From: Mesorhizobium sp.
Lineage (GTDB): Bacteria > Pseudomonadota > Alphaproteobacteria > Rhizobiales > Rhizobiaceae
NCBI RefSeq assembly: GCF_016793485.1
Contig: NZ_JAEULZ010000016.1
Span: 281,837-345,836 of the forward strand
Reading direction: 5' to 3'
DNA length: 64,000 nt
Positions within the stretch are counted from its first letter, which is position 1; every line of letters begins with the position of its first letter. Shown in pieces: positions 27,753-45,292 of the stretch. Both the position numbers and the translations under genes were made by a program. The notes under the pieces are model-generated. The model did no database searches and was not told the DNA's origin. It saw only the letters and a program-made list of their open reading frames with translations.

Positions 27753-28754
27753 CTACAAGAAGGCGGGAATAACCTCGCGTCCGTAGCCGGCGATGATCTC
27801 TTCTTCCATGCCGCTGTCGAGATAGATGTTGAACTGCGTTACGCCGGCATCCTTCAGCTTGCCGATCTTGGCGATGTGTTCCGCCGGCTCGCCGAGCACG
27901 CAGAAATTCTCGACAACGTCGGGCGTGATGAAGTCGAGATATGGATTGCTGCTCTGGCCGTGCTTGGAATAGTCGTAGCCGCGCCGCTTCTCGATGTAGC
28001 TGGTCAGGCTTTCCGGCACGAGGCTGGTGTCCTTGCCATACTTCTCCACGATGTCGGCGACATGGTTGCCGACCATCGCGGGGAACCACTTCGTCGCTTC
28101 GATCGCCTTGTCCTTGGGACCAAAATAGGCCGGCGCGCAGGACATCGAGCGGAAGCCCGACATGTCGCGCCCCGCCGCCTTGCCGGCGTCCAGGCACTGG
28201 TCCGTGAACCACTTGCACAGGCCAGGCTCCGCGATCTGGAGGACCACGCCGTCGGCATGCTCGCCCGCCGTCTTCAGCGCCAGCGGTCCGTAGGCCGCGA
28301 TCCACGCCGGCATTTCGTGGCCGACGGCCCAGGGAAACTTCACCGGCTCCGGCGACTCGCCGTAGACGACCTCGTCGCCGCGCACCATCGCCTTGGTCTT
28401 GGCGATGAACTCGGCAACGCGAGCCAGCGTCGCCGGCTTGAAGCCCATCACCCTGCGCGAGGAATCGCCGCGCCCGACGCCGAGGTCGAAGCGGCCGCCG
28501 CTCTGCTTCGACAGGGAGCCGAAGATCGAGGCCGCAACCGACCAGTCGCGAACGTCGGGGTTGGTGACCAGCGGGCCGAAGCGCATGTCCTTCGTGTGTT
28601 CCAGGCACATGGCGATGGCCGCGTAGCAGTCGCGCCAGAGAATGTGCGAGTCGTAGAACCAGCAATAGCTGAAGCCGGCATATTCCGCCGCCCGCACCAG
28701 ATAGCGCGCGCGCTCCGGTTCGACGACGCCCTTGAATGTGATCCCGAATTCCAT
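27753..28754 (-). CDS. Luciferase-like F420-dependent oxidoreductase
   Basis: A 333-residue LLM-class TIM-barrel protein starting MEFGITFKGVVEPERARYLV. Motifs include GRFDLGVGRGDSSRRVMGF and a C-terminal GEPAEHIAKIGKL. It resembles the F420-dependent CPS_4043-type group within the luciferase-like superfamily. Family members transfer hydride between F420 and an organic substrate. It is the last gene of the F420 cluster, 35 bases after fgd, with GAAGGGGAG upstream of its start. FMN use cannot be excluded from sequence, but the context strongly favours F420. The substrate is unknown. Confidence 0.75.
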   Translation of the reverse strand: MEFGITFKGVVEPERARYLVRAAEYAGFSYCWFYDSHILWRDCYAAIAMCLEHTKDMRFGPLVTNPDVRDWSVAASIFGSLSKQSGGRFDLGVGRGDSSRRVMGFKPATLARVAEFIAKTKAMVRGDEVVYGESPEPVKFPWAVGHEMPAWIAAYGPLALKTAGEHADGVVLQIAEPGLCKWFTDQCLDAGKAAGRDMSGFRSMSCAPAYFGPKDKAIEATKWFPAMVGNHVADIVEKYGKDTSLVPESLTSYIEKRRGYDYSKHGQSSNPYLDFITPDVVENFCVLGEPAEHIAKIGKLKDAGVTQFNIYLDSGMEEEIIAGYGREVIPAFL

Positions 28755-28789
28755 GTCAGTCTCCCCTTCTTTTCTGATGCCGACCGTGG

Positions 28790-29797
28790 TCAGCCGAATG
28801 CCTTGCGCAGGCGCGGCAGCACCTGCTCCGAATAAAGTTTCAGGAACCGTTTCTGGTCGTGTCCCGGCGCATGGAAGACCAGATGGTTGAAGCCGAGGTC
28901 CACATAGGGCCTGATCTTCTCGACATGCTCGTCCGGATCGGTCGAGACGATCCAGCGCTTCGCCGCGCGCTCGATGGGAAGCGCGTCGGCGAGCTTCTCC
29001 ATCTCGAGGGGATCCTCGACCGACATTTTTTCCTCCGGCGACAGCGAAAGTGCCGCCCAGAAACGCGTGTCCTGCAGCGCCCGCTCGCGGTCCGTGTCGA
29101 ACGACACTTTCATCTCGATCATCCGATCAATCGAGTCGGGCGCGCGGCCCGCGGTTTCAAGTCCCGCAGACACATTGGGCAGCAGCGTCTCGCTGTAAAG
29201 CTCGGGCGCCTTGCCGCTCGTGCAGATGAAGCCGTCGGCGACGCGCCCCGCATATTTTGCGATCTGCGGCCCCGCCCCCGCGACATAGATCAGCACAGGC
29301 TGGTCCGGTCGATCGTAGATCGTCGCGTTCTCGGTCTGGTAGAACTGGCCCTCGAAGCTGACGCGCTCCTCGCTCAGCAGCCTGCGCATCAGGTCGACCG
29401 ACTCGCGCAACCGCGCGAACCGTTCCTTCAGCTCCGGCCACACGACTTTTGTTGCCGGAACCTCGTTGAGGGATTCGCCAGTGCCTATGCCGAGGATCAA
29501 TCGTCCCGGAAACAGCGAGCCCAGCGTCCCGAAGGACTGCGCCACGATTGAGGGATGATAGCGGAAAGTCGGCGTCAGCACGCTCGTGCCCATCATGATG
29601 CGCGACGTCTTCGCGCCTAGTGCTCCGAGCCACGACATGGCAAAAGGCGCATGGCCGCCGGTATGCCGCCAAGGCTGGAAATGGTCGCTGATGAAGACGG
29701 AATCGAAACCGGCCGCCTCGGCCGCCACCGAATTGTCGAGCAGTTCGGACGGGTTGAACTGTTCGGCCGAAGCCTTGTAGCCAAGCTTGAGTTCCAT
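28790..29797 (-). CDS. fgd: F420-dependent glucose-6-phosphate dehydrogenase (FGD-like)
   Basis: A 335-residue protein from the ATG at 29797, preceded by GGGAGAAGG. It begins [14 protein letters not shown] and closely follows the mycobacterial FGD1 sequence recalled from the family. Asp38, His39, Trp43 and Glu108 match the FGD active-site Asp39/His40/Trp44/Glu109. Lys196 (TSGK), Lys257 (PEEKMS) and Arg281 (AAKRW) match the three basic residues that bind the sugar phosphate. It should oxidise glucose-6-phosphate to 6-phosphogluconolactone and reduce F420. Other sugar-6-phosphates, or an alcohol-dehydrogenase role as in FGD paralogues, remain possible. Confidence 0.82.
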
Positions 29798-29822
29798 CGC
29801 GCCTTCTCCCGTATCCTCCAAA

Positions 29823-29866
29823 GCAATTCCAGGAAAAGTGCGTAGCGGTTTTCCGTCCGGAATTGC
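29823..29866. repeat. 44-bp intergenic palindrome between cofCE and fgd
   Basis: Terminal repeats GCAATTCC (29823-29830) and GGAATTGC (29859-29866) enclose AGGAAAAGTG...GCGGTTTTCC. It resembles common rhizobial intergenic palindromes and shares the CGGTTTTC core with the element at 26635. It lies in the only sizeable gap of the F420 operon and could attenuate or stabilise the mRNA. Confidence 0.65.
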
Positions 29867-29881
29867 GTAAAAACAAACTAT

Positions 29882-31246
29882 CTACAGGAACAGTTCCTGT
29901 TCCACCGGCCGCAACACCTGCCGCGCGCTGGCCTCTTGATCGTCTTTCCAATCCAGCCCGCGCACAACAACCACAGGCAGCCCGGCGTCCTTGCCCATCA
30001 GCAGGCCGGCTGCCGCTGCCACCTCGTCGGCAAAAGCCGGCAGCGTCGCCTTCAGCCCGCGGCCATAGGCGTCGGTGCGCGTAGTCCAGTCGACCAGCAC
30101 CGGCACCCCGGCCACGCCGATCGCCACGTTGACGAGACCATTGCGCCACGGCCGCCCGAACGTATCCGATACAATGACGCCAATCGGCCCGCCACAACGC
30201 GCCTCCAGCCCGGCGCGGATCGTCCGCGCACTTGCGTCGGGATCATCAGGCAGGAGCAGCAGCATGCCCTCGCGCCCCGCGCCAAGATTGGATTCGTCGA
30301 TGCCCGCATTGGCGCAGATCCATCCATGCCTGTGCCGCGTGATGAGCAGGCCATCAGGGGGTTGCTTCCTCGCGCGGATTACATCGGTGGATTCGGCGAG
30401 GATCGCCTCGACCTTGCGCGCATCCTTGCCGATCTCGGCGGACAGTTTTTCGGCTGCTTCCGAAGGCGTGAAGTTTGCCATCGGGACAAGTCTTCCCTCG
30501 GCCTTCGAGACGATCTTCTGCGCGACCACCACGATATCGCCGGGCAACAGCCGCATCCCGGCTGCATCGGCCGCCCCCGCGATCACCGCAGCCAGATCGT
30601 CGCCCTGCGCAATCTCGCCGATGCCGGGGATTGCGAGAAGCTGCGCACGCTCTTCCAGCACCGGCAGCCTGATCGCCTCGGCCAGATCCTCGGGCCGGTC
30701 GAGGTCGCGCGACAGGTGAGGCAGCACAAGAACCTCGACGCCGAGCCCGGCCGCTCTTGCAGCCGCCTCATGCGCGGCAGCGGACTGCCGCCCGAAGTGA
30801 AAGCCGATCGCATCCGGCGGCGAGACCAGCAGCGCATTGGTGCCGCCGTCGCGCGACTGCGCGATCACTACCGGGGTTCGCTTGCCTGCCGCCAGCAACG
30901 CCTGCAACTCGCCCCCGACCAGCGTCGGGATATCGGCATGCAGCACCAGCAGCGCATCGGCTCCGATACCGACCGCCCATCCAGCGGCCAGTCCGGCAGC
31001 CGCGTTCAGGTCGCCAGCCTCCGGTTCAGGGATGACGATCGCGCCTCGCGTCGCCGCACGCCCGGCGATCGCAGGCGACCGCGTGACCACCCCCACCGGT
31101 CCGTCGTGCCGATCCGTCAGGAAGGCGAGCGTGTTGTCGAAGAGCAGCATGGCAAGCCCTTCGCGCGCATCGTTCGCCAGCACTGGCCTGAGCCGCGACT
31201 TCGCCTCGGCCGGGTCCTTCATCATGATGACCGCCGCGACCGTCAC
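29882..31246 (-). CDS. cofCE: Fused CofC-CofE: guanylyltransferase and F420 glutamate ligase
   Basis: A 454-residue fusion. Residues 1-195 are CofC-like: KDPAEAKSRLRPVLA near the start is the nucleotide-binding loop, and LLVLHADIPTLVGGEL carries the metal-binding Asp. This part makes the GDP-activated lactate, phosphoenolpyruvate or phosphoglycerate moiety. Residues from about 205 are CofE: GDIVVVAQKIVSKAEGR, then SDTFGRPWRNGLVNVAIG, the metal/GTP-binding signature. CofE adds glutamates to F420-0. No C-terminal FMN domain like that of actinobacterial FbiB is present. Its start overlaps the cofD stop by 4 bases. Confidence 0.88.
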   Translation of the reverse strand: MTVAAVIMMKDPAEAKSRLRPVLANDAREGLAMLLFDNTLAFLTDRHDGPVGVVTRSPAIAGRAATRGAIVIPEPEAGDLNAAAGLAAGWAVGIGADALLVLHADIPTLVGGELQALLAAGKRTPVVIAQSRDGGTNALLVSPPDAIGFHFGRQSAAAHEAAARAAGLGVEVLVLPHLSRDLDRPEDLAEAIRLPVLEERAQLLAIPGIGEIAQGDDLAAVIAGAADAAGMRLLPGDIVVVAQKIVSKAEGRLVPMANFTPSEAAEKLSAEIGKDARKVEAILAESTDVIRARKQPPDGLLITRHRHGWICANAGIDESNLGAGREGMLLLLPDDPDASARTIRAGLEARCGGPIGVIVSDTFGRPWRNGLVNVAIGVAGVPVLVDWTTRTDAYGRGLKATLPAFADEVAAAAGLLMGKDAGLPVVVVRGLDWKDDQEASARQVLRPVEQELFL

Positions 31247-32238
31247 GCGCTGCGACGCTCCCGCGACGGCACGAGCCCTGCCGCGAACTCCAGCACCTCG
31301 CGCGCCAGCCGCTCGGCCCCTTCCGGCCCACCCATCAGGATGTCCATGGAAGCAACGGAAAGCCCAGCCTTCCGCAGCGCTTCGGCATCCTCCGTATCGC
31401 CAGCATCCACGACGAACCCGTCGAGCAGACCGGCATAGCGACCAGCGACTGCACGAGACGTCGCCTCAAGGCCAAGATCCTGCATCAGCCGCGCCAGCGG
31501 TCCCTTTACCGCCTTCCCGCCGATCAACGGCGACACGCCGACGCAGGGCGCAGGGGTCTGCGCGACCGCATCGCGCAGACCTGCAACCGCCAGCATGGGT
31601 TCGATCGACAGCAGCGGGTTGCTGGGCGCAAAAACGATCAGCTCGGCCGCCCCGATTGCCGCCATCGCCTGCGCGGAAGGCCGGGCAGCGTCGGCACCTT
31701 CATAGCGCAATTCGCTGACTTTCGGCCCGCATCGTTTGCCGACGAACCATGGCTGGAAATCCATCCAGCCCTCGTCCGTGTTAAGCTTTGTCCGCAGCCT
31801 GTCGTCTGTCGCCGGCACGATGTTTGTGCGCGTATCGAACCGCTTGGCGGCCTCCACCGTAATCTCTGAAAGACTGTCGCCCTCGGCGAGCCGCCAGCTC
31901 CGCCAGATATGCAGACCGAAATCGGCATCGCCGAGTTTCATCCACGCCGGCGCGCCGAGATCGCGCAGCACGTCGAGCGCCTTCACCGTATCGTCAGCCA
32001 CGCCCCAGCCTTGGCGACGGTTGATGCGATCCGAAAGCGTGTAGAGCAGCGTGTCGATGTCAGGGCACACCCGCAGTCCATAGAACTCCTCGTCGTCGCC
32101 GACATTGGCGATGACCGTCAGCGCACCTTCCGGCAGGGCGCGCGCAAAGCCCTCCGCTATACGCGCACCGCCGACGCCACCGGCGAGAAGCACCACGCTG
32201 CGGAAATCCCCCGCCGATTCCACCTCGGCCATCCTCAT
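31243..32238 (-). CDS. cofD: CofD: 2-phospho-lactate-type transferase for F420
   Basis: A 331-residue enzyme that transfers the GDP-activated phosphoacid to FO, giving (dehydro-)F420-0. The N-terminal VVLLAGGVGGARIAEGFARA is the Rossmann-like signature of the family, and NVGDDEEFYGLRVCPDIDT is the conserved acidic substrate-binding segment. SPLIGGKAVKGP lies in the C-terminal half. The start (32238) overlaps the cofH stop and the end overlaps cofCE, both by 4 bases. Confidence 0.94.
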   Translation of the reverse strand: MRMAEVESAGDFRSVVLLAGGVGGARIAEGFARALPEGALTVIANVGDDEEFYGLRVCPDIDTLLYTLSDRINRRQGWGVADDTVKALDVLRDLGAPAWMKLGDADFGLHIWRSWRLAEGDSLSEITVEAAKRFDTRTNIVPATDDRLRTKLNTDEGWMDFQPWFVGKRCGPKVSELRYEGADAARPSAQAMAAIGAAELIVFAPSNPLLSIEPMLAVAGLRDAVAQTPAPCVGVSPLIGGKAVKGPLARLMQDLGLEATSRAVAGRYAGLLDGFVVDAGDTEDAEALRKAGLSVASMDILMGGPEGAERLAREVLEFAAGLVPSRERRSA

Positions 32239-33506
32239 TCCGCCGCGACCGGATGCGGCGCTGCCCTATCGAGGAACGCCAGCGGATTCGCGCCTTGCCT
32301 GCGGCCGACCAGCGGCGCGATCTCGTCCGGGTCGCGCTCGGAATAATCCGCCACCACCTCATAGAGCGTGTTCCGCTGCACCGGAATTCGTCCCGCCGAG
32401 CGGATGATGCGCACCATCTCGGACGGCGTGATCTCCTGCCCATGCACGGACCCGGCGGCGCGCGAAATGCTTTCGTTCATCAGCGTCCCGCCGAGATCGT
32501 TGACGCCGCAATCGAGCATGAAGCGCGCGGTTTCCGGCCCGAGCTTCACCCAGGACACCTGAATGTTGTCGATGAAGCCGGCGAGCATCAGCCGCGCCAC
32601 TGCGTGCATGCGAACATTCTCCGCCGCCGTCGGACCGGGCCGCGCCTCGGGATGATCGCGGAAAAGCCGCGTCTGCTCATGCACAAAACCAAGCGGCACG
32701 AATTCCGTGAAACCGCCGGTATCCATCTGGATCGAGCGGATGCGATCGATATGCGCGGCCCAATGCGCCGGCCCGTCAATATGGCCGTACATAATCGTCG
32801 ATGTCGTTCGGATGCCGGCCGCATGCGCCGCGCGGATGATCCGCTCCCACTCGTCCGCCGACAGCTTGTTGCGCGTGAGTTGGAGCCGCACCTGCGTATC
32901 GAGGATTTCGGCCGCCGTGCCCGGCATCGAACCAAGCCCGGCCTGCTTCAGCGCCGCCAGATAGTCCTCCAGCGGCATGCGGCTCTTCTTGACGCCATAC
33001 CAGATCTCGAAGGGCGAGAAGGCGTGCACATGCATCTGCGGCACGCGCGTCTTCACCGCGTCCAACAGCCTGAAATAGTGATCGCCATCGATGTCCGGGT
33101 GCAGTCCGCCCTGGATGCAGACTTCGGTGCCGCCGCGCAGCCACGCTTCCTCGGCGCGGTTTGCGACTTCCTCCAGCGACAGAAGTTCCGCGCCCTTCGC
33201 CTCCTTGCGAACGCCGAAGTTGCAGAACTGGCAGGCCATGTAGCAGACGTTGGTGAAGTTGATATTGCGCACCGTGACGAAGGTGACGCGGTCCCCGACG
33301 CGCCGCCGCCTGACCTCATCGGCAGTCGCCACCAGCGCGGCCAGATCGGCTCCCGAAGCCGAGAAAAGCGCCTCGCCTTCTTCCCGCGTGATGATCCGCC
33401 CTTCGAGCGCACGGTCGAGGATGGCGCGGATGTCCTGGCTAGCGTCGCCGAGCGCAATCTCCAGCGGCTGCTTTTCGATCCGGATGATGTCTGCCGCTTC
33501 GGACAT
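32235..33506 (-). CDS. cofH: CofH: FO synthase subunit 2 (radical SAM)
   Basis: A 423-residue radical SAM enzyme. NVCYMACQFCNF holds the Cx3Cx2C iron-sulfur cluster motif. QGGLHPDIDGDHYF and HAFSPFEIWYG are characteristic of CofH and menaquinone MqnE/MqnC relatives. With CofG it joins tyrosine to a ribityl-pyrimidine to make the FO chromophore. CofG directly beside it separates it from menaquinone enzymes. Three bases separate it from cofG. Confidence 0.93.
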   Translation of the reverse strand: MSEAADIIRIEKQPLEIALGDASQDIRAILDRALEGRIITREEGEALFSASGADLAALVATADEVRRRRVGDRVTFVTVRNINFTNVCYMACQFCNFGVRKEAKGAELLSLEEVANRAEEAWLRGGTEVCIQGGLHPDIDGDHYFRLLDAVKTRVPQMHVHAFSPFEIWYGVKKSRMPLEDYLAALKQAGLGSMPGTAAEILDTQVRLQLTRNKLSADEWERIIRAAHAAGIRTTSTIMYGHIDGPAHWAAHIDRIRSIQMDTGGFTEFVPLGFVHEQTRLFRDHPEARPGPTAAENVRMHAVARLMLAGFIDNIQVSWVKLGPETARFMLDCGVNDLGGTLMNESISRAAGSVHGQEITPSEMVRIIRSAGRIPVQRNTLYEVVADYSERDPDEIAPLVGRRQGANPLAFLDRAAPHPVAAE

Positions 33507-33509
33507 GGG

Positions 33510-34661
33510 TCAGGCCACGTACTGGTCGCGCGCAAAACCGTCCGCCCGCGCCATGCCGGCCAGCGTCGCATGCAGCGGTGCGGTTTCGACGCCGAGATGG
33601 GCGGGATAGACAGTCAGCCGTTCGACCAGACGGTACCCCCGCGCCTCGGTGCGGCGCGCCAGTTCGGCCACCGCCGGCCAGGCGCGTTCAGGATTGATGT
33701 GATCTGCGGTCAACGGTGAAATGCCGCCCCAGTCGTTGATTCCGCAGTCGAGATAGCTTTCGAAATCCTGCTCGAGGTTGGGCGGCGCCTGCAGGCTGAT
33801 CGACGGGTCGAGCACCAGCCGCGCCATGGCCAGCGTCCCCTGCATGTCGTCGCGCGACGGCTCCGCCCATTCGGCCATCGCCGTGCCGGGCTTGGCGCGA
33901 AAGTTCTGTACGATCACCTCCTGCACGTGGCCGTAGCGTCGATGCAGTTCGTTGATGGCGACGAGGCTGTCGACCCGTTCGTCCCATGTCTCGCCGATGC
34001 CGATAAGGATGCCCGTCGTAAATGGAACGCCGAGTCGGCCGGCCGCCTCGATAGTGCGCAGCCTCAAGAGCGGTGCCTTGTCCGGGCAGGCATGGTGCGC
34101 CATGCCGGGCTTCATCAACCGTCGGCTGGCATTTTCGAGCATCATGCCCATCGATCCCGAGACTTCGCGCAGCCGCGCGATCTCCTCCTCGTCCAGCGTC
34201 CCGGCGTTGACATGCGGCACGAGCTTCGTCTGGTCCAGCACCAGCTTGCAGGCATCGACGAGATAGTCGACCGTCGATGCATATCCCAGCCGCGTAAGCG
34301 CTGCGCGCGCTTCCTCGTACCGGCGCTCCGGCCGCTCGCCGAGAGAGAACAGCGCTTCCTTGCAGCCGAGCCGCTCGCCGTTCATGGCGACAGCAAGCAC
34401 CTCGTCCAGCGTCATGAAATTGGCGCCGGGATCACTGGGATGCTTGACGAAGGTGCAATAGCCGCACGTATTGCGGCACATGGTGGTCAGCGGGATGAAA
34501 ACCTTCCGCGAATAGCTAACGGCTTTGCCCCAGTGAAGGTCACGCAGGTCGGCCGCCCGCTTCTTCAGCGCCGTGAAAGCGTCGCCCGTCAGGCCCGCGA
34601 AGGCCTTCGCCTCGTCGGCTATGCAAGGATAGACCTGTTCCCCTGAGCGCTCGATCGACAT
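33510..34661 (-). CDS. cofG: CofG: FO synthase subunit 1 (radical SAM)
   Basis: A 383-residue radical SAM enzyme with TMCRNTCGYCTF (Cx3Cx2C). ALFSLGERPERRYEEA and HVQEVIVQNFRAKPGTAM are CofG hallmarks. It completes the deazaflavin ring closure after CofH. In actinobacteria both parts are fused as FbiC; here they are separate, as in archaea and cyanobacteria. It is the first gene of the F420 operon. Two dyads lie just upstream in the divergent promoter region. Confidence 0.94.
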   Translation of the reverse strand: MSIERSGEQVYPCIADEAKAFAGLTGDAFTALKKRAADLRDLHWGKAVSYSRKVFIPLTTMCRNTCGYCTFVKHPSDPGANFMTLDEVLAVAMNGERLGCKEALFSLGERPERRYEEARAALTRLGYASTVDYLVDACKLVLDQTKLVPHVNAGTLDEEEIARLREVSGSMGMMLENASRRLMKPGMAHHACPDKAPLLRLRTIEAAGRLGVPFTTGILIGIGETWDERVDSLVAINELHRRYGHVQEVIVQNFRAKPGTAMAEWAEPSRDDMQGTLAMARLVLDPSISLQAPPNLEQDFESYLDCGINDWGGISPLTADHINPERAWPAVAELARRTEARGYRLVERLTVYPAHLGVETAPLHATLAGMARADGFARDQYVA

Positions 34662-34713: not shown

Positions 34714-34912
34714 GTTTGTGGCGCGGTGTCAATGGACGCCGCGATGGAGAGACCAGCCCTGGGGCTGATAATGGGTTCCAGCCCAATTTATGTCTCTATA
34801 TTGGAGTTTCTCCCTTGGCTTGCGTTGCGCATTGGCCGATTTTGGATATGTCATCGCGATGACAACGGCCGGCTCCCAACGGCGGACTGAAATCAGGAAT
34901 GAGACAGGCGGC

Positions 34913-36142
34913 ATGATAAGCCGACGATGCGTTTTCTTCATCGGGGGCTACGATCCGAAGACGCCAACGGCGTTTTTCCGGCGCCTTTCGCGGGAGATGG
35001 AGCTGTTCGAGACAGTATGGGATGTCCAGACGTCGAGGAGCGACGTTGCGACGCCAGAGGGCGATGTGGGCGTGCTGACCGTCTCGTCCAGTCACCGGAA
35101 GTCGACCCTTCCGGATGACGATGTCTCCGAAAAACCTGCCCTGCCGGTCGAAGACAAGGACTGGCAGGTCACCACGGATTTTTATTTCCTGGGCCTTGAT
35201 TCCATCGTGACCAGGGACGCAGCCCGTCCGCTGCCGGTGCGCCTGTTCCGATACCTCGTCGCCTTCTTCGACTACTGGCTGACAGGAACGGCCTTTTCCT
35301 TCTTCTCCCGCAGCTGGCGCTTCGCGCTCTACTTCCTCTATCCGTTCGTCACGACGCTGTTCCTCTTTCTCGTGGCCCTGCTTGCGTCGTCCGTCGTCTT
35401 GCGCCTTTTCGGCATCGGCAGTTTGGCCCTCGCCACGCTCATCGCACTGGTTGCGCTGTTTCCGCTTCTCGCTACGCTCGGCAAGCGCTGGTCGGTCACC
35501 CACCTGATGGACCTGTGGTCGTTCTCATCAGAATATCTTCGTGGCAAGAGGCCTCAGGCCGAGCGCCTGATGGATCGCTATGCGGCGATCGTCGCGCAGA
35601 CGACCAATGCGCAGCCCTACGATGAGATCGTCTTTGTCGGCCACAGCACCGGCGGCGGGCTGATCCTGGAGATGGCGGCGAGAAGCCTGGTCGCCGACCC
35701 TCAGCTTGCCCGCCGCGATGCCAAGGTCAGCCTGCTGACGCTGGGATCGACCGCGCTGAAGTTCGGGCTTCATCCGGCCGCCAAGGCCTTCAGGGCACGG
35801 GTCCAGACCCTCGTCGACGAACCCGCGCTCGGCTGGTCGGAATTCCAGTGCCTGATCGACGTGATCAACTTCTACGACACCGATCCGGTGATCGAGATGG
35901 GGCTCAGGCCCAGGCAGTCGGGCAGTCCTGCCTTTCCCGTCGTCCGCAGGGTCCACATGCGCGACATGACGGGCGCTTCCAGGTATCGGCGGATCAGACG
36001 GCGATTCTTCCGCATCCACTACCAGTTCATCATGGCCAACGGGCAACGCTACTTCTACGATTTTTTCCATATCTGCTTTGGACCGGCGCCGTTGTCGGCG
36101 ATCACGCCCAATCAGCCGCCCGAAGCAGGAGTTGACCAATGA
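34913..36142 (+). CDS. Membrane-associated alpha/beta hydrolase
   Basis: A 409-residue protein from the ATG at 34913 with AGGCGG upstream. The start region MISRRCVFFIGGYDPKTP resembles the oxyanion strand of serine hydrolases. Two transmembrane helices lie mid-protein (about residues 140-185). A nucleophile elbow GHSTGGGLILEMAA follows at about residue 243, with an Asp in INFYDTDPVIE and a His in RIHYQF as possible triad members. Probably a lipid esterase facing the cytoplasm. It forms an operon with the next two genes, with a 4-base ATGA overlap. Confidence 0.65.
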   Translation: MISRRCVFFIGGYDPKTPTAFFRRLSREMELFETVWDVQTSRSDVATPEGDVGVLTVSSSHRKSTLPDDDVSEKPALPVEDKDWQVTTDFYFLGLDSIVTRDAARPLPVRLFRYLVAFFDYWLTGTAFSFFSRSWRFALYFLYPFVTTLFLFLVALLASSVVLRLFGIGSLALATLIALVALFPLLATLGKRWSVTHLMDLWSFSSEYLRGKRPQAERLMDRYAAIVAQTTNAQPYDEIVFVGHSTGGGLILEMAARSLVADPQLARRDAKVSLLTLGSTALKFGLHPAAKAFRARVQTLVDEPALGWSEFQCLIDVINFYDTDPVIEMGLRPRQSGSPAFPVVRRVHMRDMTGASRYRRIRRRFFRIHYQFIMANGQRYFYDFFHICFGPAPLSAITPNQPPEAGVDQ

Positions 36143-37423: not shown

Positions 37424-38764
37424 TCACGCCTTCAAAAGCAGATGCTCGCGCTCCCATGCGGTGACGACATTGTCGAACGCCTCCAGTTCGCGCTGTTTTA
37501 CGCGCAGGAATGTCTGGAAGAAGTCGTTACCGACGATGGCCCGCACCGGCTCGCAGGCGATGAAGCGGTCGAGCGCCTGCGGCATGGAGCCGGGCAGGGT
37601 GGTTTGCGCCCGATAGACATTGCCCGACGCTTCCGGCCTTCGCTCCAGTTTTTCTTCCATGCCGAGCCAGCCGGCGATCAGCGTCGCGGCGATCGCCAGA
37701 TAGGGATTGGCGTCGGCTCCGGGAAGCCGGTTCTCGACGCGCCGCGCCTCAGGTCCGGCCTTCGGCACCCGCAGTCCGCATGAGCGGTTATCCTGCGACC
37801 ACTCGACATTTGCCGGTGCACTGTGGTTCGGCCGCACGCGCCGATAGGAGTTCACGTTCGGGGCAATCAGCGGCATGGTCTCGGGGACATATTTCTGCAA
37901 CCCGCCCATGAAGTGCGAAAACCGCGCCGTGTCGGCCCCGTCCTCGCCCGCAAAGACATTGCGCCCATCCTGGTCAACCAGCGAGACATGCAGGTGCATG
38001 GCGCTGCCGGCCTGTTCGTCCATGGGTTTCGCCATGAAGGTGATGTTCATGCCGTGTTCGATCGCCGCCTTCCGGGCGACGCGCTTGAACAGCACGACCT
38101 GGTCGCAGAGCTCCAGCGGGTCGCCATGCAGCAGGTTCACCTCGAGCTGGCCCGAACCCGTCTCGTGGCTCAGCGTATCCAGCGCAATGCCCATCTTCGC
38201 ACAGCGCTCGTAGATCCGGCGCATGACCGGATCGTACAGTTCCAGCGCTTCCATCCCGTAGGGATTCTGCGAGCTCTCCTGCCTTCCGTCGGCGGTAACC
38301 GGCGTCACGACCGGGTCGCGCGGGTCCGGATTCGGCGCAGTTACGTAGAATTCGAGTTCCGGCGCGACGACCGCGCGCCAGCCCTTTTCCGCATAGAGCG
38401 CCATCACCGATTTCAGCAGCACGCGCGGCAGCGCGCTCCACGGGCTGTCGGCGGGATAACAGGCGTCGGCCAACACCCAGGCTCGGCTTGGCTGATCCGG
38501 CGCGACCCGCAGCGTTGTCATGTCGGGGGCAAGCACCATGTCGGGATCGCCATAGGCAAAACCCTCGTCCACTGACCCCGAATAGCGGCCATCCGCGCAC
38601 ACCAGCAACGCACTCGTCGGCAGATAGAGCGTTGCGCCGTCCAGCGCCTTCAGGAACTTCGCGGCCGGAAGCACCTTGCCTCGCAGCACGCCGTTCATGT
38701 CGGGGACGAGGCATTCCACCTCGGCTATTGCGTGTCTTTCGATCCAGCCGGCGGCGTCATCCAT
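37424..38764 (-). CDS. Glutamine synthetase-like gamma-glutamyl ligase (PuuA type)
   Basis: About 446 residues. ECLVPDMNGVLRGKVLPA is the N-terminal beta-grasp of the non-GlnA ligases. LEFYVT, SGQLEVNL, NSYRRVRPNHSAPANVEWS and NRSCGLRVP are catalytic-domain motifs. Such enzymes gamma-glutamylate amines such as putrescine as the first step of their degradation. The adjacent aldehyde dehydrogenase and Pot transporter support an amine substrate. ATG at 38764 fits family length; upstream Met codons exist to 38839. Confidence 0.82.
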   Translation of the reverse strand: MDDAAGWIERHAIAEVECLVPDMNGVLRGKVLPAAKFLKALDGATLYLPTSALLVCADGRYSGSVDEGFAYGDPDMVLAPDMTTLRVAPDQPSRAWVLADACYPADSPWSALPRVLLKSVMALYAEKGWRAVVAPELEFYVTAPNPDPRDPVVTPVTADGRQESSQNPYGMEALELYDPVMRRIYERCAKMGIALDTLSHETGSGQLEVNLLHGDPLELCDQVVLFKRVARKAAIEHGMNITFMAKPMDEQAGSAMHLHVSLVDQDGRNVFAGEDGADTARFSHFMGGLQKYVPETMPLIAPNVNSYRRVRPNHSAPANVEWSQDNRSCGLRVPKAGPEARRVENRLPGADANPYLAIAATLIAGWLGMEEKLERRPEASGNVYRAQTTLPGSMPQALDRFIACEPVRAIVGNDFFQTFLRVKQRELEAFDNVVTAWEREHLLLKA

Positions 38765-38781
38765 TCTGGATGGCCTGTTTG

Positions 38782-40293
38782 TCAGACATGCTTGCGTCCT
38801 CCCGCCCTGCGGAACCATTCGTCCGGATAGGGATACCACCAGTCCTGCACGACCGGCTTGTGGTCGATGATCACCATCTTCGTCCGGCGAAAGGCGTCAA
38901 GCCCCTGCCGGCCAAGTTCGCGCCCGATGCCGGATGCCTTCCAGCCGCCGAACGGCAGCGCGTCATTGTCGATCAGCGGGTTGTTGACCCACACCATGCC
39001 CGCTTCGAGTCGCTCGGCGGCTTCGTGCGCCTCGGCGAGGTCCTTGGTGAAGATCGACGCGCCAAGTCCGAACGGGCTGTCATTCGCGAGCTTGATCGCC
39101 TCGTCGAAATCCCTGACACGACAGATCGCCGCCACCGGCCCGAAACATTCCTCGCGGCAGATCGCCATGTCCGGGGTCACGCCCGTCAGGATCGTCGGCT
39201 CGTAGAACCAGCCGGTGTTGTGCGCGGGCGGAATGCGTCCGCCGGTCACCGCCGTGGCCCCATTTGCGATGGCATCATCCACTAGCCGCATCACCTTGGC
39301 GCGCGCTGCCTCGCTGACCAGCGGCCCGATCTCCGTCTCATCCATGCCGTTGCCGATGCGAAGCGCCCGGGTCTTCTGGACAAACAAATCGACGAATTCG
39401 TCATGCACGGACTCGACCACGAAGAACCGCTCGGCTGACGTGCAGACCTGTCCCGACAGATGGAATGCCGCCGTCACGCTGCCCGCCGCCGCAACCTCCA
39501 GCGGCGCATGCGCCGAAACGATCAGCGGGTCGCTGCCGCCAGCCTCGATCACGCAGGGCTTGGTCCGCTCGGCGCAAGCCACCGCGACGCGCCGCCCCGC
39601 CGCCACCGATCCCGTAAACGCCACCGCATGCGTCCGCTTCGATTCCACCAATGCCTTGCCGACATTCGCACCGCCGGGCAGGCAGGACACCAGCCCCTCC
39701 GGCAGCGAACGGAAAACCGCCATGTAGTCTAGCGTGGAGAGCGTCGTCGCTTCGGCCGGCTTGATGATGCAGGCATTGCCGGCCGCCAGCGACGCCGCCA
39801 CCGTCCAGCACATCAGCAGGATCGGGAAGTTGTAGGGCATGATGTGCACGGACACGCCGTAGGGCTCGTAACGCGCATACTGGAACGAGCCGGCCTGGGT
39901 CGTGCCTGCGATCTTGCCCGCTTCGTCGCGCGCCATCTCGGCATAGTAGCGGAAGATCGGCGCGCAATTGGCGATCTCTCCGATCGCCTCCGGATAGGGT
40001 TTGCCCATCTCGCGCACCATCAGTTCGGCACAGCGCGTGAAGTCGGCCGCCTCGATGGCGTTAGCGACCGCATGCAAATGCTTTGCCCGCGTCTTGGCGT
40101 CTAGCGCCTTCCAGCGCTTCTGCGCCTCCGTCGCGGCGGTGAGCGCCGCATCGATCTCCGCCTCGGTCGCCTCCGCGATGGCGCCGGCAGTGCCAAGTGT
40201 CGCGGGGTCGATGACGGGCCGCGCAAGTCCTGCCATGTCCCGATAGGTGGGGTTGATGAAATAGGCGGGGCGATCCGCCGAGAAGCTGCTCAT
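38782..40293 (-). CDS. NAD(P)-dependent aldehyde dehydrogenase
   Basis: A 503-residue ALDH-superfamily enzyme. MPYNFPILLMCWTVAASLA is the cofactor-domain signature and AFTGSVAAGRRVA is the Rossmann loop. The catalytic Glu segment is EAGGSDPLIV (ALDH usually has ELGG). The catalytic Cys lies in LSGQVCTSAERFFV. It would oxidise an aldehyde, for example gamma-glutamylaminobutyraldehyde, to the acid. The ATG at 40293 has TTAGGATC upstream. It starts 12 bases after the cupin gene stop. Confidence 0.88.
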   Translation of the reverse strand: MSSFSADRPAYFINPTYRDMAGLARPVIDPATLGTAGAIAEATEAEIDAALTAATEAQKRWKALDAKTRAKHLHAVANAIEAADFTRCAELMVREMGKPYPEAIGEIANCAPIFRYYAEMARDEAGKIAGTTQAGSFQYARYEPYGVSVHIMPYNFPILLMCWTVAASLAAGNACIIKPAEATTLSTLDYMAVFRSLPEGLVSCLPGGANVGKALVESKRTHAVAFTGSVAAGRRVAVACAERTKPCVIEAGGSDPLIVSAHAPLEVAAAGSVTAAFHLSGQVCTSAERFFVVESVHDEFVDLFVQKTRALRIGNGMDETEIGPLVSEAARAKVMRLVDDAIANGATAVTGGRIPPAHNTGWFYEPTILTGVTPDMAICREECFGPVAAICRVRDFDEAIKLANDSPFGLGASIFTKDLAEAHEAAERLEAGMVWVNNPLIDNDALPFGGWKASGIGRELGRQGLDAFRRTKMVIIDHKPVVQDWWYPYPDEWFRRAGGRKHV

Positions 40294-40304
40294 GATCCTA
40301 ACCA

Positions 40305-41030
40305 TCACCGGATCATGTAAACCTTCTTGATTGTCTCATGCACGGTGCACACGCCCTTCCAGTCCTGCGGGAAGAAGGCCGCCGTATCCGGCACGATCTC
40401 GATCACTTCTCCGCTCTCGTGCACATAGGTGCAGCGTCCTTCGAGGAAGTGGCAGAACTCGTCGCGCGTCACATGGCATTCCCACTTGCCCGGCGTGCAG
40501 ACCCACAGGCCGCATTCGGAACGGCCTTCCGGTCCCTTGTGGATTACCCGGCCCGACGTCCGGGACTCGCCCTCGATCATGGTCGGGATCACGCCCCAGT
40601 CCACAAGGTCGGTCTGCTCGAGCGGCTTCCTCATCAGTGGTGTCGTCGTCATTGTCTTTTCCTTATGAGCCGGCTCATCCTCGGCCAGAATATACGTGTT
40701 TCGGATAGCCTCATGGACGGTGCATTCGCCGGTCCAGCCGGCCGGGAACATCACCGCAGTACCGGCGTCCACCTCGATGACCTCGCCGCCGTCCTCGCGA
40801 TACGTCGCGCTCCCCGCCACGAAATGGCAGAGTTCGTCGCGCGGGATCGACAGCCGCCAGCGCCCCTCGGTGCAGACCCAGATGCCGACTTCCGGCCGGT
40901 TGCCCGGCCCCTTGTGCACGAGCCTGCCCGTCGAGCGCGACACGCCCTCGATTGCATCCGCCTGCACGCCCCAGTCGACAAGGTCGGTGCGGGTCGAGGC
41001 CTCGTAGAGATGCGGCGCGGACGAAGTCAC
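40305..41030 (-). CDS. Tandem cupin protein (two DUF861-type domains)
   Basis: A 241-residue protein made of two homologous cupins of about 115 residues. Each begins TDLVDWGV, then has GR(L/V)(V/I)HKGP, CHF(V/L)xG and a closing ECTVHEAIRN or VCTVHETIKK segment. DUF861 cupins are often small-molecule enzymes or sensors. The start is a GTG at 41030 overlapping the glycosyltransferase stop (GTGA). An internal ATG at 40652 has AAGGA 8 bases upstream, so the second cupin may also be made alone. Sequence upstream of 41030 in this frame is not protein-like. Confidence 0.75.
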   Translation of the reverse strand: MTSSAPHLYEASTRTDLVDWGVQADAIEGVSRSTGRLVHKGPGNRPEVGIWVCTEGRWRLSIPRDELCHFVAGSATYREDGGEVIEVDAGTAVMFPAGWTGECTVHEAIRNTYILAEDEPAHKEKTMTTTPLMRKPLEQTDLVDWGVIPTMIEGESRTSGRVIHKGPEGRSECGLWVCTPGKWECHVTRDEFCHFLEGRCTYVHESGEVIEIVPDTAAFFPQDWKGVCTVHETIKKVYMIR

Positions 41031-42301
41031 AGCAGCTTTTCCAGCAAGCCCGCGGCCTTCTCCGGACCGTTCTGCGCCTGCATGTGCTTCGACGTCGCCG
41101 CAAGCTTCGCCTGTATCGCCGGATCGCCGATGCAGGCGTCGAGCTTGGCGATCAGTTCCGCCTCCGTCCAGTCGTAGCGCGGCATCTTGAAGCCGTGTCC
41201 GGTCTCCTGCACGCGCGTGGCGTTGTCGTGGCCGTCCCACACATAAGGCATGATGATAGCCGGCTTGCCGAAGAACAGGCATTCGGTGAACGAGTTGTTG
41301 CCGCCATGGTGGATCACGGCATCGACCTGCGGGATGACCGAAGGCTGCGGGAACCAGCCATCGATGATCACATTGCCGGGCACGTCAGAATACTGGTCCT
41401 TGTATCCCCCGACATTGACCAGAGCGCGATACTTCGACTTCCCGATTGCCGCGATGATCCTCTTCAGCAACTCCGTATCGCCCGCGCCGAGCGAACCGAA
41501 CGACACATAGACCAGCGGCCCGTCATTATTCTTGGCGAAGGTCGGGACATCGTAGGCCGCCTCCTTGCGCACGCATCCCTCAAGATACTGGAACTGCTTG
41601 GGGTCCAGCGGAATATCGCGCTTGAACTTCACGCTCTCGGGATAGAGTAGCAGGTTGAGATGCGGCGACGCCTCGAAGAACTGGCCAATCGGATAGGGCG
41701 CTTCGTTGGTCGACTTCAGGAATTCGTTGAAGTCGTCGTGGATCGGCTTGATCACCTCGTTGAAGCGGTCGCGATAAGCCTTGTGGCCGGCATGGTCGTT
41801 CTCGCCGCAACCCGAAAGATGCGGCGGGATGCCCTCGTCCTCGATTTCATTTTCCGAGCAGGAGATGATGCGCACCCACGGCACGCCATATTGCTTGATC
41901 GCCGGGAACAGGATGACATTGTCGACGCAGATCACGTCCGGCTTGATCTTGGCCAGCACGCCGGGCAGGTCCTTCTGCGCCCATTTCGCGCTGTCGACGA
42001 TCGCCGTCCAGCAATCCTTCACGTAGTTGTCGATCTGGTCGTAGGGCGATTTCGCGAAGTTCGGGATGTGGCCGTTGATAAAATCCTCCCAGAATTTCGC
42101 CATCACCTCGGGCGGCATCGGCTCGGAAAGGTTCACCGGATGCGCCTCGAAGCCGTAGCCTTTGTAGACATCCACGAAGCCCGGATCGGAGAGGAAGACA
42201 GCCTTGTGCCCGCGCGCCTGCACAGCCTGCGCGATGCCGACCGAATTGAGCGCAGGCCCGTAGGCGGCCTCCGGGAAGAATGCGATTGTTTTCTGGGTCA
42301 T
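41027..42301 (-). CDS. UGT-type (GT1-like) glycosyltransferase, first paralogue
   Basis: A 424-residue GT-B protein. The N-terminal Rossmann part begins TIAFFPEAAYGPALNSVGIA. The donor-binding C-terminal part carries GPLVYVSFGSLGAGD and VDAVIHHGGNNSFTECLFFG, the macrolide-glycosyltransferase-like HHGG..T/S..E motif. It would use a nucleotide sugar to modify a small molecule. It sits between potA and the cupin gene, which is an odd place for such an enzyme. GGAGGC precedes the ATG at 42301. Confidence 0.8.
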   Translation of the reverse strand: MTQKTIAFFPEAAYGPALNSVGIAQAVQARGHKAVFLSDPGFVDVYKGYGFEAHPVNLSEPMPPEVMAKFWEDFINGHIPNFAKSPYDQIDNYVKDCWTAIVDSAKWAQKDLPGVLAKIKPDVICVDNVILFPAIKQYGVPWVRIISCSENEIEDEGIPPHLSGCGENDHAGHKAYRDRFNEVIKPIHDDFNEFLKSTNEAPYPIGQFFEASPHLNLLLYPESVKFKRDIPLDPKQFQYLEGCVRKEAAYDVPTFAKNNDGPLVYVSFGSLGAGDTELLKRIIAAIGKSKYRALVNVGGYKDQYSDVPGNVIIDGWFPQPSVIPQVDAVIHHGGNNSFTECLFFGKPAIIMPYVWDGHDNATRVQETGHGFKMPRYDWTEAELIAKLDACIGDPAIQAKLAATSKHMQAQNGPEKAAGLLEKLL

Positions 42302-42315
42302 GGAAGCCTCCGGTC

Positions 42316-43383
42316 TCAATGTCTGAAGATGCGTGTGTCGGCTGCCGACCAGCCGAGGTCCACCGTGTCGCCGACTGCAAGCGGCCGGCGGTCGGCGGTA
42401 TCCGCGGTCACGCGAATGAGGAAGGGTTTGTCGGCCAGCGGGGTCTTGACGTGAAGCTGCAGATCGAGCCCGTGATAGGCCAGGGCCACGACCCGCCCGC
42501 TCGTCCGGTTCGCGATATCATCGGCCGGGAACAGCACGATTCGTTCCGGTCGCACCGCCGCGATCGCCGCCGCGTCGTTTGCGATTTCGTCAGGTAGCGA
42601 ACCGGTAATAAGCGACCCGTCGCGCGCCTTGACGCCCTGCCCGGATACGCTGCCCTCGGCGAAATTCATCACGCCGATGAAGCCCGCCACGAACGCATCC
42701 GCGGGATGCTCGTAGACCGTATGCGGTGTGTCGCATTGCAGCAGCCGGCCGTCTTTCAGCACCGCCATGCGGTCGGCCATGACCAGCGCTTCCTCCTGGT
42801 CGTGCGTCACCACGATGAAGGTGATGCCGACCTCGTGCTGCAGGCGCTTCAGTTCGATCTGCATGTCGCCGCGCAGCTTCTTGTCGAGCGCGCCCAGCGG
42901 CTCATCCAGCAGCAGCACGCGCGGCCGCTTGATCAGCGCACGCGCCAGCGCCACGCGCTGCTTCTGGCCGCCCGAAAGCTGGTCCGGCTTGCGGTCGGCG
43001 AGCCCGCCGAGCTGCGTGGTCACCAGCATCTCATCGACTCGTGAGCGGATTTCGGAACCCGGCCTGCCCTCCATCTCCAGCCCGTATGAAATGTTGGCGC
43101 GCACGCTCATATGCGGGAACAGCGCATAGGACTGGAACATCAGGTTGACCGGCCGGCGGTTCGGCGGCGTGCGCGAGACGTCCGCGCCGTCGAGCAGGAT
43201 GCGCCCGCGCGTCGGCGTCTCGAAGCCGGCCAGCATGCGCAGCAGCGTGGTCTTGCCACATCCCGAGGGTCCGAGCAGCGCGAAGAACTCGTTCTCGCGG
43301 ATGGACAGCGACACGTCGTCGACGGCCGTCAGCGGGCCGAACTTCTTCGAGACGCCCTCGATCTCCAGCACGTCCCGGCTCAT
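42316..43383 (-). CDS. potA: Polyamine-type ABC transporter ATP-binding protein
   Basis: A 355-residue ATPase. Walker A GPSGCGKTT, signature LSGGQKQRVALARAL, Walker B LLLDEPLGALD, and a C-terminal TOBE domain with CDTPHTVYEHPADAFVAGFIG. It powers uptake with PotB, PotC and PotD. The ATG at 43383 overlaps the potC stop by 4 bases; the open frame extending to 44046 is antisense-like shadow of potC. The TOBE domain may tune activity. Confidence 0.93.
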   Translation of the reverse strand: MSRDVLEIEGVSKKFGPLTAVDDVSLSIRENEFFALLGPSGCGKTTLLRMLAGFETPTRGRILLDGADVSRTPPNRRPVNLMFQSYALFPHMSVRANISYGLEMEGRPGSEIRSRVDEMLVTTQLGGLADRKPDQLSGGQKQRVALARALIKRPRVLLLDEPLGALDKKLRGDMQIELKRLQHEVGITFIVVTHDQEEALVMADRMAVLKDGRLLQCDTPHTVYEHPADAFVAGFIGVMNFAEGSVSGQGVKARDGSLITGSLPDEIANDAAAIAAVRPERIVLFPADDIANRTSGRVVALAYHGLDLQLHVKTPLADKPFLIRVTADTADRRPLAVGDTVDLGWSAADTRIFRH

Positions 43384-44174
43384 TGCCCCACCATCCCCTT
43401 GTTCAGCCTCTGCGAGATGGCGAGCGCGATGACGCTGACCGCCATGACGATGGTGGCCAGCGCGTTGATCTCCGGCGTGATGCCGAAGCGGATCATCGAA
43501 TAGATCTGCATCGGCAGCGTCGTCGACGAACGTCCCGCGCCGGCCGTGAAGAAGGCGATGATGAACTCGTCCACCGACAGCGTGAAGGCGAGCAGTGCGC
43601 CCGCCACCACGGCTGGCAGGATGACCGGCAGCGTCACCCGCCTGAATGTCGTAAAGCCTGACGCGCCAAGGTCGGCGGAAGCCTCGGTGATCGACCAGTC
43701 GAAGCTTTTCAGCCGCGCCCGGACCACGGCGCAGACGAAGGCGAGGTTGAACACGACATGCGCCATCACGATCGTGTGCAGGCCCATCGTCACGTTGAGC
43801 ATCGAGAAGAAGGAGAGCAGCGCCACAGCCAGCACGATGTCCGGGATAATCATCGGCGCGAACACCAGCGCCTCCAGCACCGTCCCGCGCCGTCGCCGCG
43901 TCTCGACGCCGATCGCCAGCAGCGTGCCGAGCACGGTCGCGATTGCCGTGGACGCGACCGCCACGATCAGCGTGTTCAGCGCCGCGTGGAGAATGTCCGC
44001 GTTCGAGGCCAGAGACACATACCATTTCGTCGAGAAGCCCGACCACACGGTGGGTAGCCCGCCCTCATTGAAGGAAAGCGCCACCAGCACGGCGATCGGG
44101 ATGTACAGGAAGGCGAAGACGAGCACGAGCACCGTCGTGCCGCTGCGCCGCGCAGTCGCGGAACGTTCCGCCAT
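43380..44174 (-). CDS. potC: Polyamine-type ABC transporter permease PotC
   Basis: A 264-residue inner-membrane permease with six helices. The EAA loop SITEASADLGASGFTTFRRV contacts the ATPase. The ATG at 44174 has GGGAGGAAGC upstream and overlaps the potB stop (TGATG); GTG at 44177 is an alternative. Confidence 0.92.
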   Translation of the reverse strand: MAERSATARRSGTTVLVLVFAFLYIPIAVLVALSFNEGGLPTVWSGFSTKWYVSLASNADILHAALNTLIVAVASTAIATVLGTLLAIGVETRRRRGTVLEALVFAPMIIPDIVLAVALLSFFSMLNVTMGLHTIVMAHVVFNLAFVCAVVRARLKSFDWSITEASADLGASGFTTFRRVTLPVILPAVVAGALLAFTLSVDEFIIAFFTAGAGRSSTTLPMQIYSMIRFGITPEINALATIVMAVSVIALAISQRLNKGMVGQ

Positions 44175-45040
44175 CACGCTTCCTCCCGGGCCTGCGCGGT
44201 GCGCGTCGAGGCGCGATCCGCCGCATAGCCCTGCACCAGCAGGAGCAGCATCATGATCGCGATCAGCACGGCCGCGAGCGCCGCGCCGAAGGGCCAGTCG
44301 TTGGCGGTCAGGAACTGGTCGTAGACGAGGTTGCCGATCATCTGGAAGCGCCCGCCGCCAAGCAGCGCCGGCGTCACGAAATTGCCGATCGACAATACGA
44401 AGACGAACACCGCGCCTGCCGCGATGCCGGGCAGCGTCAGCGGCAGGATGATGCGGCGGAAGGTGGTGACGGCCGAGCCGCCAAGGTCGCGCGAGGCTTC
44501 GGCGAGTTCTGGATTCAGCCGCGACAGCGGCGCGTAGCAGGCGAGGATGACGAAGGGCAGGTAGTTATAGACCAGCCCGGCGATGACCGCGCCCTCGGTG
44601 TAGAGCATGGACGGCGGCTCGCCCGTATAGCCGAACCAGCGCAGCACCTGTGTCACCAGTCCCTCGCGGTTGAGCAGCACGATCCAGGCATAGGTGCGGA
44701 TCAGGTAGTTCGACCAGAACGGCAGCACCGCGAAGAACAGCAGCACCGGCTGCAGCGAGCGCCGGCACGAGGCGATGGCGTAGGCCGCAGCGTAACCGAT
44801 GACGACCGCGATCAGCGTCGCGGTTCCGGCGATGCGCGCCGACCGCAGGAAGATGCCCGCGTAGAGCGGGTCGAAGACCTTGGCGAAATTCTCCAGCGTG
44901 AAGGTGTAGTCGACGCCGCCATAGATTCCGCGCTGGAAGAAGGCCAGAGCCAGCACCAGCCCACACGGCACGACCATCAGGCCGATCAGCCATGCCAGCG
45001 CCGGCGCCATGAGGAAGGCGGGACGGGAGTTGGTCGTCAC
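44174..45040 (-). CDS. potB: Polyamine-type ABC transporter permease PotB
   Basis: A 288-residue permease with six helices; the EAA loop is ELAEASRDLGGSAVTTFRRI. The preferred start is GTG at 45040 (TTNSRPAFLMAPALAW follows). Continuing upstream to 45127 would translate into the large inverted repeat, which is unlikely. It is separated from potD by 252 bases that contain this repeat. Confidence 0.9.
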   Translation of the reverse strand: MTTNSRPAFLMAPALAWLIGLMVVPCGLVLALAFFQRGIYGGVDYTFTLENFAKVFDPLYAGIFLRSARIAGTATLIAVVIGYAAAYAIASCRRSLQPVLLFFAVLPFWSNYLIRTYAWIVLLNREGLVTQVLRWFGYTGEPPSMLYTEGAVIAGLVYNYLPFVILACYAPLSRLNPELAEASRDLGGSAVTTFRRIILPLTLPGIAAGAVFVFVLSIGNFVTPALLGGGRFQMIGNLVYDQFLTANDWPFGAALAAVLIAIMMLLLLVQGYAADRASTRTAQAREEA

Positions 45041-45091
45041 GACACGCCGGCAGTTTGCGTGGAGAGACTGGCGAGGCTTGTTGCCCTTTCG

Positions 45092-45250
45092 CGCCCCCCT
45101 CTGTCCTGCCGTACATCTCCCCCACATGGGGGGAGATCAGCCGTCACAAGCGGATCTGCCAATTGCCCACGCCGCAATGCGCGCGGCGTCCTCGAAGCCA
45201 GCCAATCTCCCCCCATGTGGGGGAGATGTACGGCAGGACAGAGGGGGGCG
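45092..45250. repeat. Perfect 46-bp inverted repeat between potD and potB
   Basis: The left arm 45092-45137 and right arm 45205-45250 are exact reverse complements over 46 bases, with a 67-base spacer. Each arm contains a smaller palindrome ATCTCCCCCC.ATG.TGGGGGAGAT. A related single copy occurs at 63692-63722. In mRNA it would form a very stable stem that could protect potD transcripts and reduce read-through into potBCA. No transposase or target duplication is visible. Confidence 0.9.
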
Positions 45251-45292
45251 ACATAGAGCACGTCCGTCAACCGCTAGCTGAATGGCGAGCGC

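Follow-up and report, generated by a model that had tools for sequence, protein, structure and literature searches.

What does an aerobic alphaproteobacterium do with reduced coenzyme F420? The question is raised by a 64,000 nt stretch of Mesorhizobium sp. DNA (GCF_016793485.1, contig NZ_JAEULZ010000016.1, positions 281,837-345,836, forward strand), here called the window, in which a six-gene operon encodes F420 synthesis, a predicted F420-dependent glucose-6-phosphate dehydrogenase (FGD) and a luciferase-like monooxygenase-family (LLM) oxidoreductase of family TIGR03842. The available part of a 2021 FEMS review describes the role of F420 in bacteria outside the Actinobacteria as lacking experimental tests (PMC8498797), and the initial annotation of the window had left the use of the reduced cofactor as unknown. 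Gene context now offers a specific proposal, the reduction of pyrimidines by TIGR03842.

In the pathway that we propose, CofG and CofH would make FO, CofD and the CofC domain of a CofC-CofE fusion would add the phospho-acid linker, and the CofE domain would add the glutamates. FGD would then reduce F420 with glucose-6-phosphate, and the TIGR03842 enzyme would spend the resulting F420H2, transferring hydride to the C5=C6 double bond in uracil, thymine or a close pyrimidine to give the dihydropyrimidine. This product would be opened by a dihydropyrimidinase and then an N-carbamoyl-amidase, the reductase serving as an F420-dependent replacement of PreTA. The balance of evidence tips slightly towards this reading, in which the operon makes and charges F420 and TIGR03842, the window protein included, is an F420H2-dependent pyrimidine reductase in place of PreTA. 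We infer the substrate and the reaction from gene context, co-occurrence and the mutual exclusion of TIGR03842 and preA on plasmids; for the window protein, the suggestion of a shared function comes from its 67-72% identity to the pyrimidine-linked clade.

Pyrimidine genes around TIGR03842

We surveyed 297 genomes of the same order, with family calls made from NCBIfam model scores against the model cut-offs. A cofE gene was present in 40 genomes, in 39 of them above cut-off (in the one remaining, G171, the copy is broken; this genome was excluded), and TIGR03842 exceeded its cut-off in 24 genomes from seven families. All 24 carry cofE (hypergeometric 2e-25, relatedness ignored), and in 22 the two genes lie close together on one contig. 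Up to 60 kb around cofE or the LLM gene was read in the 39 genomes, with shorter neighbourhoods for G088 (30 kb), G103 (5 kb), G134 (11 kb) and a few others (44-51 kb), and longer ones for G071 and G231.

Eleven of the 24 TIGR03842 genomes have a dihydropyrimidinase and an amidase of the hydantoinase/carbamoylase family 8.7-20.6 kb from the LLM gene, which there takes the place of PreTA; the one dihydropyrimidinase scanned scored 605 bits against TIGR02033 (cut-off 393). Ten of these 11 genomes also encode a TetR regulator resembling the RutR-like protein of Leisingera, eight a methylmalonate-semialdehyde dehydrogenase (MMSDH) and four an AptA-type omega-aminotransferase. An aminotransferase and MMSDH suit the fate of beta-alanine and beta-aminoisobutyrate. 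A single strand of genome G084 carries omega-aminotransferase, MMSDH, amidase, dihydropyrimidinase, four ATP-binding cassette (ABC) genes, cofG-H-D-C-E, fno and the LLM gene. Among the 15 cofE-bearing genomes without TIGR03842, none had a dihydropyrimidinase near cofE (0/15 versus 11/24; Fisher 0.0015), a value that overstates independence because the 11 genomes come from only three families (f44 with eight, f22 with two, f51 with one), and this narrow origin counts against the proposal together with the points gathered below.

The same combination occurs in another order, on 10 plasmids of Leisingera, where hydA, amidase, aminotransferase and PntAB genes diverge from cofG-H-D-C-E-npdG-TIGR03842, which is followed by a RutR-like gene; PntAB might supply this F420 reductase with NADPH. 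On plasmids of Qingshengfaniella and Roseinatronobacter the order is preT-preA-TetR-amidase-hydA and four ABC genes (the gene called preT here carries only the annotation NAD(P)-dependent oxidoreductase, and takes its name from the E. coli PreT that it matches); preT, preA, TetR, amidase and dihydropyrimidinase genes are likewise present in Shinella. Plasmid records were tallied by hand from complete listings for dihydropyrimidinase (50 at 1e-120), preA (60 at 1e-80) and TIGR03842 (13 at 1e-40). Among the 50 dihydropyrimidinase records, preA lies no more than 12 kb away in 37 and TIGR03842 is present in 10, with no record showing both; the three with neither lie beside an N-carbamoyl-D-amino-acid hydrolase. 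Within the order neighbourhoods, no PreT or PreA was matched at 1e-8 with an alphaproteobacterial query; with the E. coli query, the single PreT match, at L178, was weak (1.7e-9) and came from a genome that lacks TIGR03842.

Eight genomes (G005, G154, G179, G222, G242, G259, G261 and G291) combine FGD, cofE and TIGR03842 with a putative F420-0 ABC importer, the genes for which lie between cofE and TIGR03842 (loci L092, L108, L110, L116, L121, L125, L126 and L127); in G242, FGD is encoded elsewhere in the genome. No FO synthase was matched in these eight genomes, versus all of the other 31 of the 39 (Fisher 2e-8; the positives include one half only in G103 and a fragment at a contig end in G134), and neither CofD nor CofC was seen near cofE, the neighbourhood to which that search was limited. 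The L092 binding protein scores 424 bits against TIGR03868 (cut-off 392) and is 66-91% identical to its counterparts in the other seven genomes; the permease (436 versus 437) and the ATPase (331 versus 372) fall under their cut-offs, with the importer families still the best models. A lifestyle of F420 salvage is likely for these organisms, and the retention of TIGR03842 where F420 is not made argues that the protein is a client of the cofactor rather than a maturation enzyme.

Within the genome that contains the window, a 5.21-Mb draft in 52 contigs, no F420:NADPH reductase of TIGR01915 was found (the control matched 7/14). Among the six of its seven PF00296 matches that were scanned, an F420-family cut-off is exceeded by the two operon proteins alone: L047 and L049 reach the cut-offs of LLM models whose names do not mention F420, L048 reaches that of no model, and L050 lies nearest an FMN-type model, far under its cut-off. 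The seventh match, L051, adjoins L050 in a different frame. Because of these results, FGD is the sole recognised F420 reducer predicted in this genome, and the TIGR03842 protein is likely to be its sole recognised F420H2 consumer, other fold families having been barely covered (their control was silent). L050 and L051 (G000 contig C13, 142537-143285) are seemingly one LLM-family gene read in two adjoining frames.

The window clade and alternative roles

An alignment and tree of 31 TIGR03842 proteins separates two clades. The 13 rows of the first (SH-aLRT, an approximate likelihood-ratio support, 100) are the window protein, those of L002, L003, L006 and L007, and those of the eight importer genomes, all of them with FGD; in the second, of 18 rows, F420:NADPH reductase adjoins the LLM gene in all 14 order loci shown, which do not include the G231 locus, and in the plasmid loci. 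Several observations weigh against a pyrimidine function, for the window clade or for the family. No dihydropyrimidinase or amidase was matched for the first clade, in the 64 kb of the window, 60 kb from each of the eight importer genomes or the 21-kb loci of L002, L003, L006 and L007, and 464 kb (9%) of the window genome held no dihydropyrimidinase, amidase, PreT or PreA; one MMSDH-like gene (60%) was found in those 464 kb. In G071 and G231, the LLM gene lies away from cofE and the dihydropyrimidinase-like genes are only 27-29% identical. The Leisingera regulator scores under the RutR cut-off (198 versus 368), the Leisingera amidase also fits models named for allantoate amidohydrolase, all 10 TIGR03842 plasmid records come from two Leisingera species whose chromosomes lay outside the preA search, and the 17 kb read from P. 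alcaliphilus contain no hydA.

Such observations leave room for a reading that we consider doubtful but worth keeping in view, in which the FGD-linked clade acts on another substrate, such as a nucleoside-derived or N-heterocyclic compound, and pyrimidine reduction is confined to the Fno-linked clade. The partition of the tree into an FGD-linked and an F420:NADPH reductase-linked clade fits this idea, as do the missing dihydropyrimidinase and 13 fixed differences between the clades, with Leu at position 62 in 13/13 window-clade rows versus 2/18 of the others. However, 153 of 333 positions are invariant across both clades, Thr at position 6 (13/13 and 4/18) gives no clean split, and in the importer clusters a nucleoside hydrolase gene (nearest RihC, under its cut-off) lies at a distance of about 6 kb in five of eight, and one for a Bmp-type binding protein at 1.2 kb in three of eight.

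A further alternative, that TIGR03842 is the missing reductase of dehydro-F420-0 (DF420-0), a maturation enzyme in place of FbiE, turns on the linker acid. The available part of PMC8764529 gives Ser or Thr at the position of Mycetohabitans CofC S162 as the mark of the 3-phosphoglycerate (3PG-F420) route; this position is Gly in the window, of the 2-phospholactate or phosphoenolpyruvate (PEP) type, and in all 44 aligned CofC rows (two organisms entered twice). The 3-phosphoglycerate route is therefore unlikely in the window, with 2-phospholactate and PEP as the remaining predicted linker acids, and a PEP route requires a DF420-0 reductase (FbiE or the FbiB C-terminal domain). None is recognisable in the window genome, where the FbiB profile matches only cofE (a search for which no known standalone FbiE served as positive control) and the sole PF00881 gene is nearest the NAD(P)H nitroreductase model PRK10828 (103 bits, below the cut-off of 183). 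The initial claim that every known step is encoded is thus not fully supported: FO synthesis, linker attachment and glutamate addition are covered, whereas this reductase is not recognised. Across the 39 cofE-bearing genomes the reductase half of the FbiB profile reaches at most 61 bits, with no score in the window genome; since no stronger match was seen, the linker chemistry of the group is unsettled, and the profile also matches in 13 of 14 control genomes, so that some of these low-scoring matches could still be FbiE. Four of the 38 cofE-bearing genomes searched, including one importer genome, gave no PF00881 match, and TIGR03842 is present in each of the four. This, like the closeness of TIGR03842 to cofE in 22 of 24 genomes, would suit a maturation role. 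We nevertheless regard such a role as improbable: the family is absent from 15 of 39 cofE-bearing genomes, it is kept in the eight genomes that lack FO synthase and seemingly import F420-0 (unless DF420-0 is what they import), and the pyrimidine gene context would be left unexplained. Even harder to credit is a Mer-like methylene-tetrahydropterin reductase that feeds one-carbon metabolism. The closest structures to the AlphaFold2 model of the window LLM protein are those of Mer and further F420 enzymes, and the Mer substrate positions B, C and D are Trp, Gln and Asp in 31/31 TIGR03842 rows. But the catalytic Glu6 of Mer is replaced by Thr or Cys in 31/31 (Thr in the window), and the E6Q variant of Mer retains 0.4% activity according to the available part of PMC11094777; the window protein scores 118 bits against the Mer model TIGR03555 (cut-off 349), and its genome has two genes of the methylenetetrahydrofolate reductase family. 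Finally, the operon might be silent or yield only traces of F420 with no specific client, as the finding of mere traces in two alphaproteobacteria (PMC8498797, available part) could suggest. Open reading frames (ORFs) in five related six-gene loci, and the presence of cofE in every genome of the order sample with TIGR03842 or FGD above cut-off, make this a slim prospect.

Organization, distribution and history of the operon

The initial annotation had placed six ORFs on one strand between 27753 and 34661 with junctions of 3-4 bases in the cof block, and both statements proved exact (Table 1): the limits agree to the base, cofG and cofH are separated by 3 bases, and cofH-cofD and cofD-cofCE each overlap by 4. 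fgd begins 60 bases past cofCE, and the LLM gene 35 bases past fgd. CofG, CofH, CofD, CofC and CofE were all found above cut-off, and scores above the NCBIfam cut-offs for all six ORFs exclude chance as the source of the family assignments. The initial picture of a compact operon that makes, reduces and probably uses F420 in a genome of Rhizobiaceae type is supported. For fgd, an ATG at 29797 agrees better with the family alignment than the listed TTG. The genome has no second CofD, and CofC and CofE form a single ORF in L002-L007 as well.

Table 1. Genes of the F420 operon in the window
Gene	Position	Strand	Product and evidence
cofG	33510..34661	-	FO synthase subunit 1; radical S-adenosylmethionine (SAM) protein, Cys motif in CRNTCGYC; TIGR03550 455 bits (cut-off 213)
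cofH	32235..33506	-	FO synthase subunit 2; radical SAM, Cys motif in CYMACQFC; TIGR03551 499 bits (cut-off 374)
cofD	31243..32238	-	predicted phospho-acid linker transfer to FO; TIGR01819 296 bits (cut-off 257)
cofC-cofE	29882..31246	-	fusion of 454 residues; guanylyltransferase domain ~1-197 (TIGR03552 146 bits, cut-off 105, residues 5-194); F420-0:glutamate ligase domain ~198-454 (TIGR01916 272 bits, cut-off 181, residues 202-453)
fgd	28790..29821	-	TIGR03554 514 bits (513.8; equivalog cut-off 420); best PDB match FGD1 3b4y, E 7e-145
LLM	27753..28754	-	TIGR03842-family oxidoreductase; 468 bits (467.6; cut-off 295, 295.45)

Judged by the fused CofC-CofE protein, the nearest named relatives are Rhizobiaceae metagenome-assembled genomes, Mesorhizobium, Corticibacterium and Oryzicola. 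Four of the six closest loci (L002, L003, L006 and L007) have the identical six-gene order, and none of the nine genes flanking the window operon was matched at these four loci (1e-8). In the remaining two, L004 and L005 from Mesorhizobium, what follows the cof block is another LLM gene and one for F420:NADPH reductase. The CofE tree places the window with Mesorhizobium, Oryzicola and Corticibacterium (seven rows, support 95), apart from the importer CofE proteins (eight rows, 100) and an Fno-linked group (15 rows, 99), and groups CofE of G071 and G231 with genomes lacking TIGR03842. The LLM tree joins the window to the importer genomes; the FGD tree is weaker. Trees had been suggested as a check on whether the operon moved as a block, and the answer depends on depth: the operon is constant among five near relatives, and deeper the CofE tree leads to Mesorhizobium, with no TIGR03842 beside the operon, and the LLM tree to genomes without FO synthase. 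It would seem that the operon was put together piecemeal and that close relatives have since received it whole, by descent or by transfer.

FGD exceeded its cut-off in 13 of the 297 genomes, all with cofE, and nine genomes carry both FGD and TIGR03842. Given these counts, the 40 genomes with cofE, and the statement in the available part of PMC8498797 that predicted alphaproteobacterial F420 producers encode Fgd, the initial description of an operon with FGD as unusual is not fully supported. Plasmid-borne cof genes were seen in Leisingera, Paracoccus, Variovorax, Agrobacterium and Sinorhizobium; cofE and npdG lie on two plasmids typed as conjugative, pSymA of Sinorhizobium meliloti R11 (L162) and a plasmid of Agrobacterium rubi (L161).

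Around the window operon, a 450-residue ORF divergent from cofG (34790-36142, +) had no Pfam or NCBIfam match at 0.001. On the opposite strand, immediately past the 3' end of the operon, lie a weakly ZorA-like ORF (20 bits, cut-off 100) and then a gene for an OmpA-domain peptidoglycan-binding protein (PRK09039; 25616-27731, +). The region 37424-48753, read by eye from the ORF lists, includes a glutamine-synthetase-like gene (the only one family-tested), an aldehyde dehydrogenase gene and polyamine-uptake-like ABC genes, and two similar glycosyltransferase-like ORFs (41027-42319 and 47479-48753).

Implications and relation to known systems

Other classes of pyrimidine reductase depend on NAD(P)H or on ferredoxin. 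We see an even chance that TIGR03842 represents a third electron-donor class, an F420H2:uracil/thymine oxidoreductase for which alphaproteobacteria keep the F420 operon or an F420-0 importer essentially as its supply, the window holding a version driven by glucose-6-phosphate. If so, the F420 of aerobic Alphaproteobacteria would gain a defined and easily assayed job, TIGR03842, listed by NCBI only as a hypothetical equivalog, would gain a function, and uracil and thymine breakdown would gain a low-potential electron donor.

The components of the window operon and of its relatives each have known counterparts. Window FGD scores above the equivalog cut-off and matches mycobacterial FGD1 over its full length, and differs in being encoded inside a cof operon; residues such as His40, Glu109, Lys198, Lys259 and Arg283 are considered important in FGD. 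The importer of L092 has the putative F420-0 transporter families TIGR03868/69/73 as its best models, and occurs here in genomes of the order without FO synthase, and not in the window. Mer, the F420-dependent methylene-tetrahydromethanopterin reductase, is the closest solved fold to TIGR03842 and is similar at the pterin-site positions B, C and D, whereas TIGR03842 lacks the catalytic Glu6 and scores below the Mer cut-off.

In reductive urate clusters of Chloroflexota, an F420-type LLM has been proposed from its neighbourhood to replace YgfK/UacX, and a hydantoinase (HyuA) is present; the substrate there is a purine intermediate, the phylum is another one, and the LLM is not established as TIGR03842 in the available part of that source (PMC12507026). 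At six Chloroflexota loci (L013, L015, L025, L029, L030 and L038), which are perhaps this urate cluster, cofE lies close to LLM genes and to a gene for a PreA-like protein (27-35% identity). Lastly, the NAD-dependent PreT/PreA systems of pyrimidine catabolism (E. coli preTA and the alphaproteobacterial preA-hydA clusters) share with the TIGR03842 loci the dihydropyrimidinase, the amidase, the ABC transporter, the RutR-like regulator and the same slot in the pathway. No PreT or PreA lies near TIGR03842 in the stretches read, and the reductase in that slot would differ in being an F420H2-dependent LLM protein that brings its own cofactor operon.

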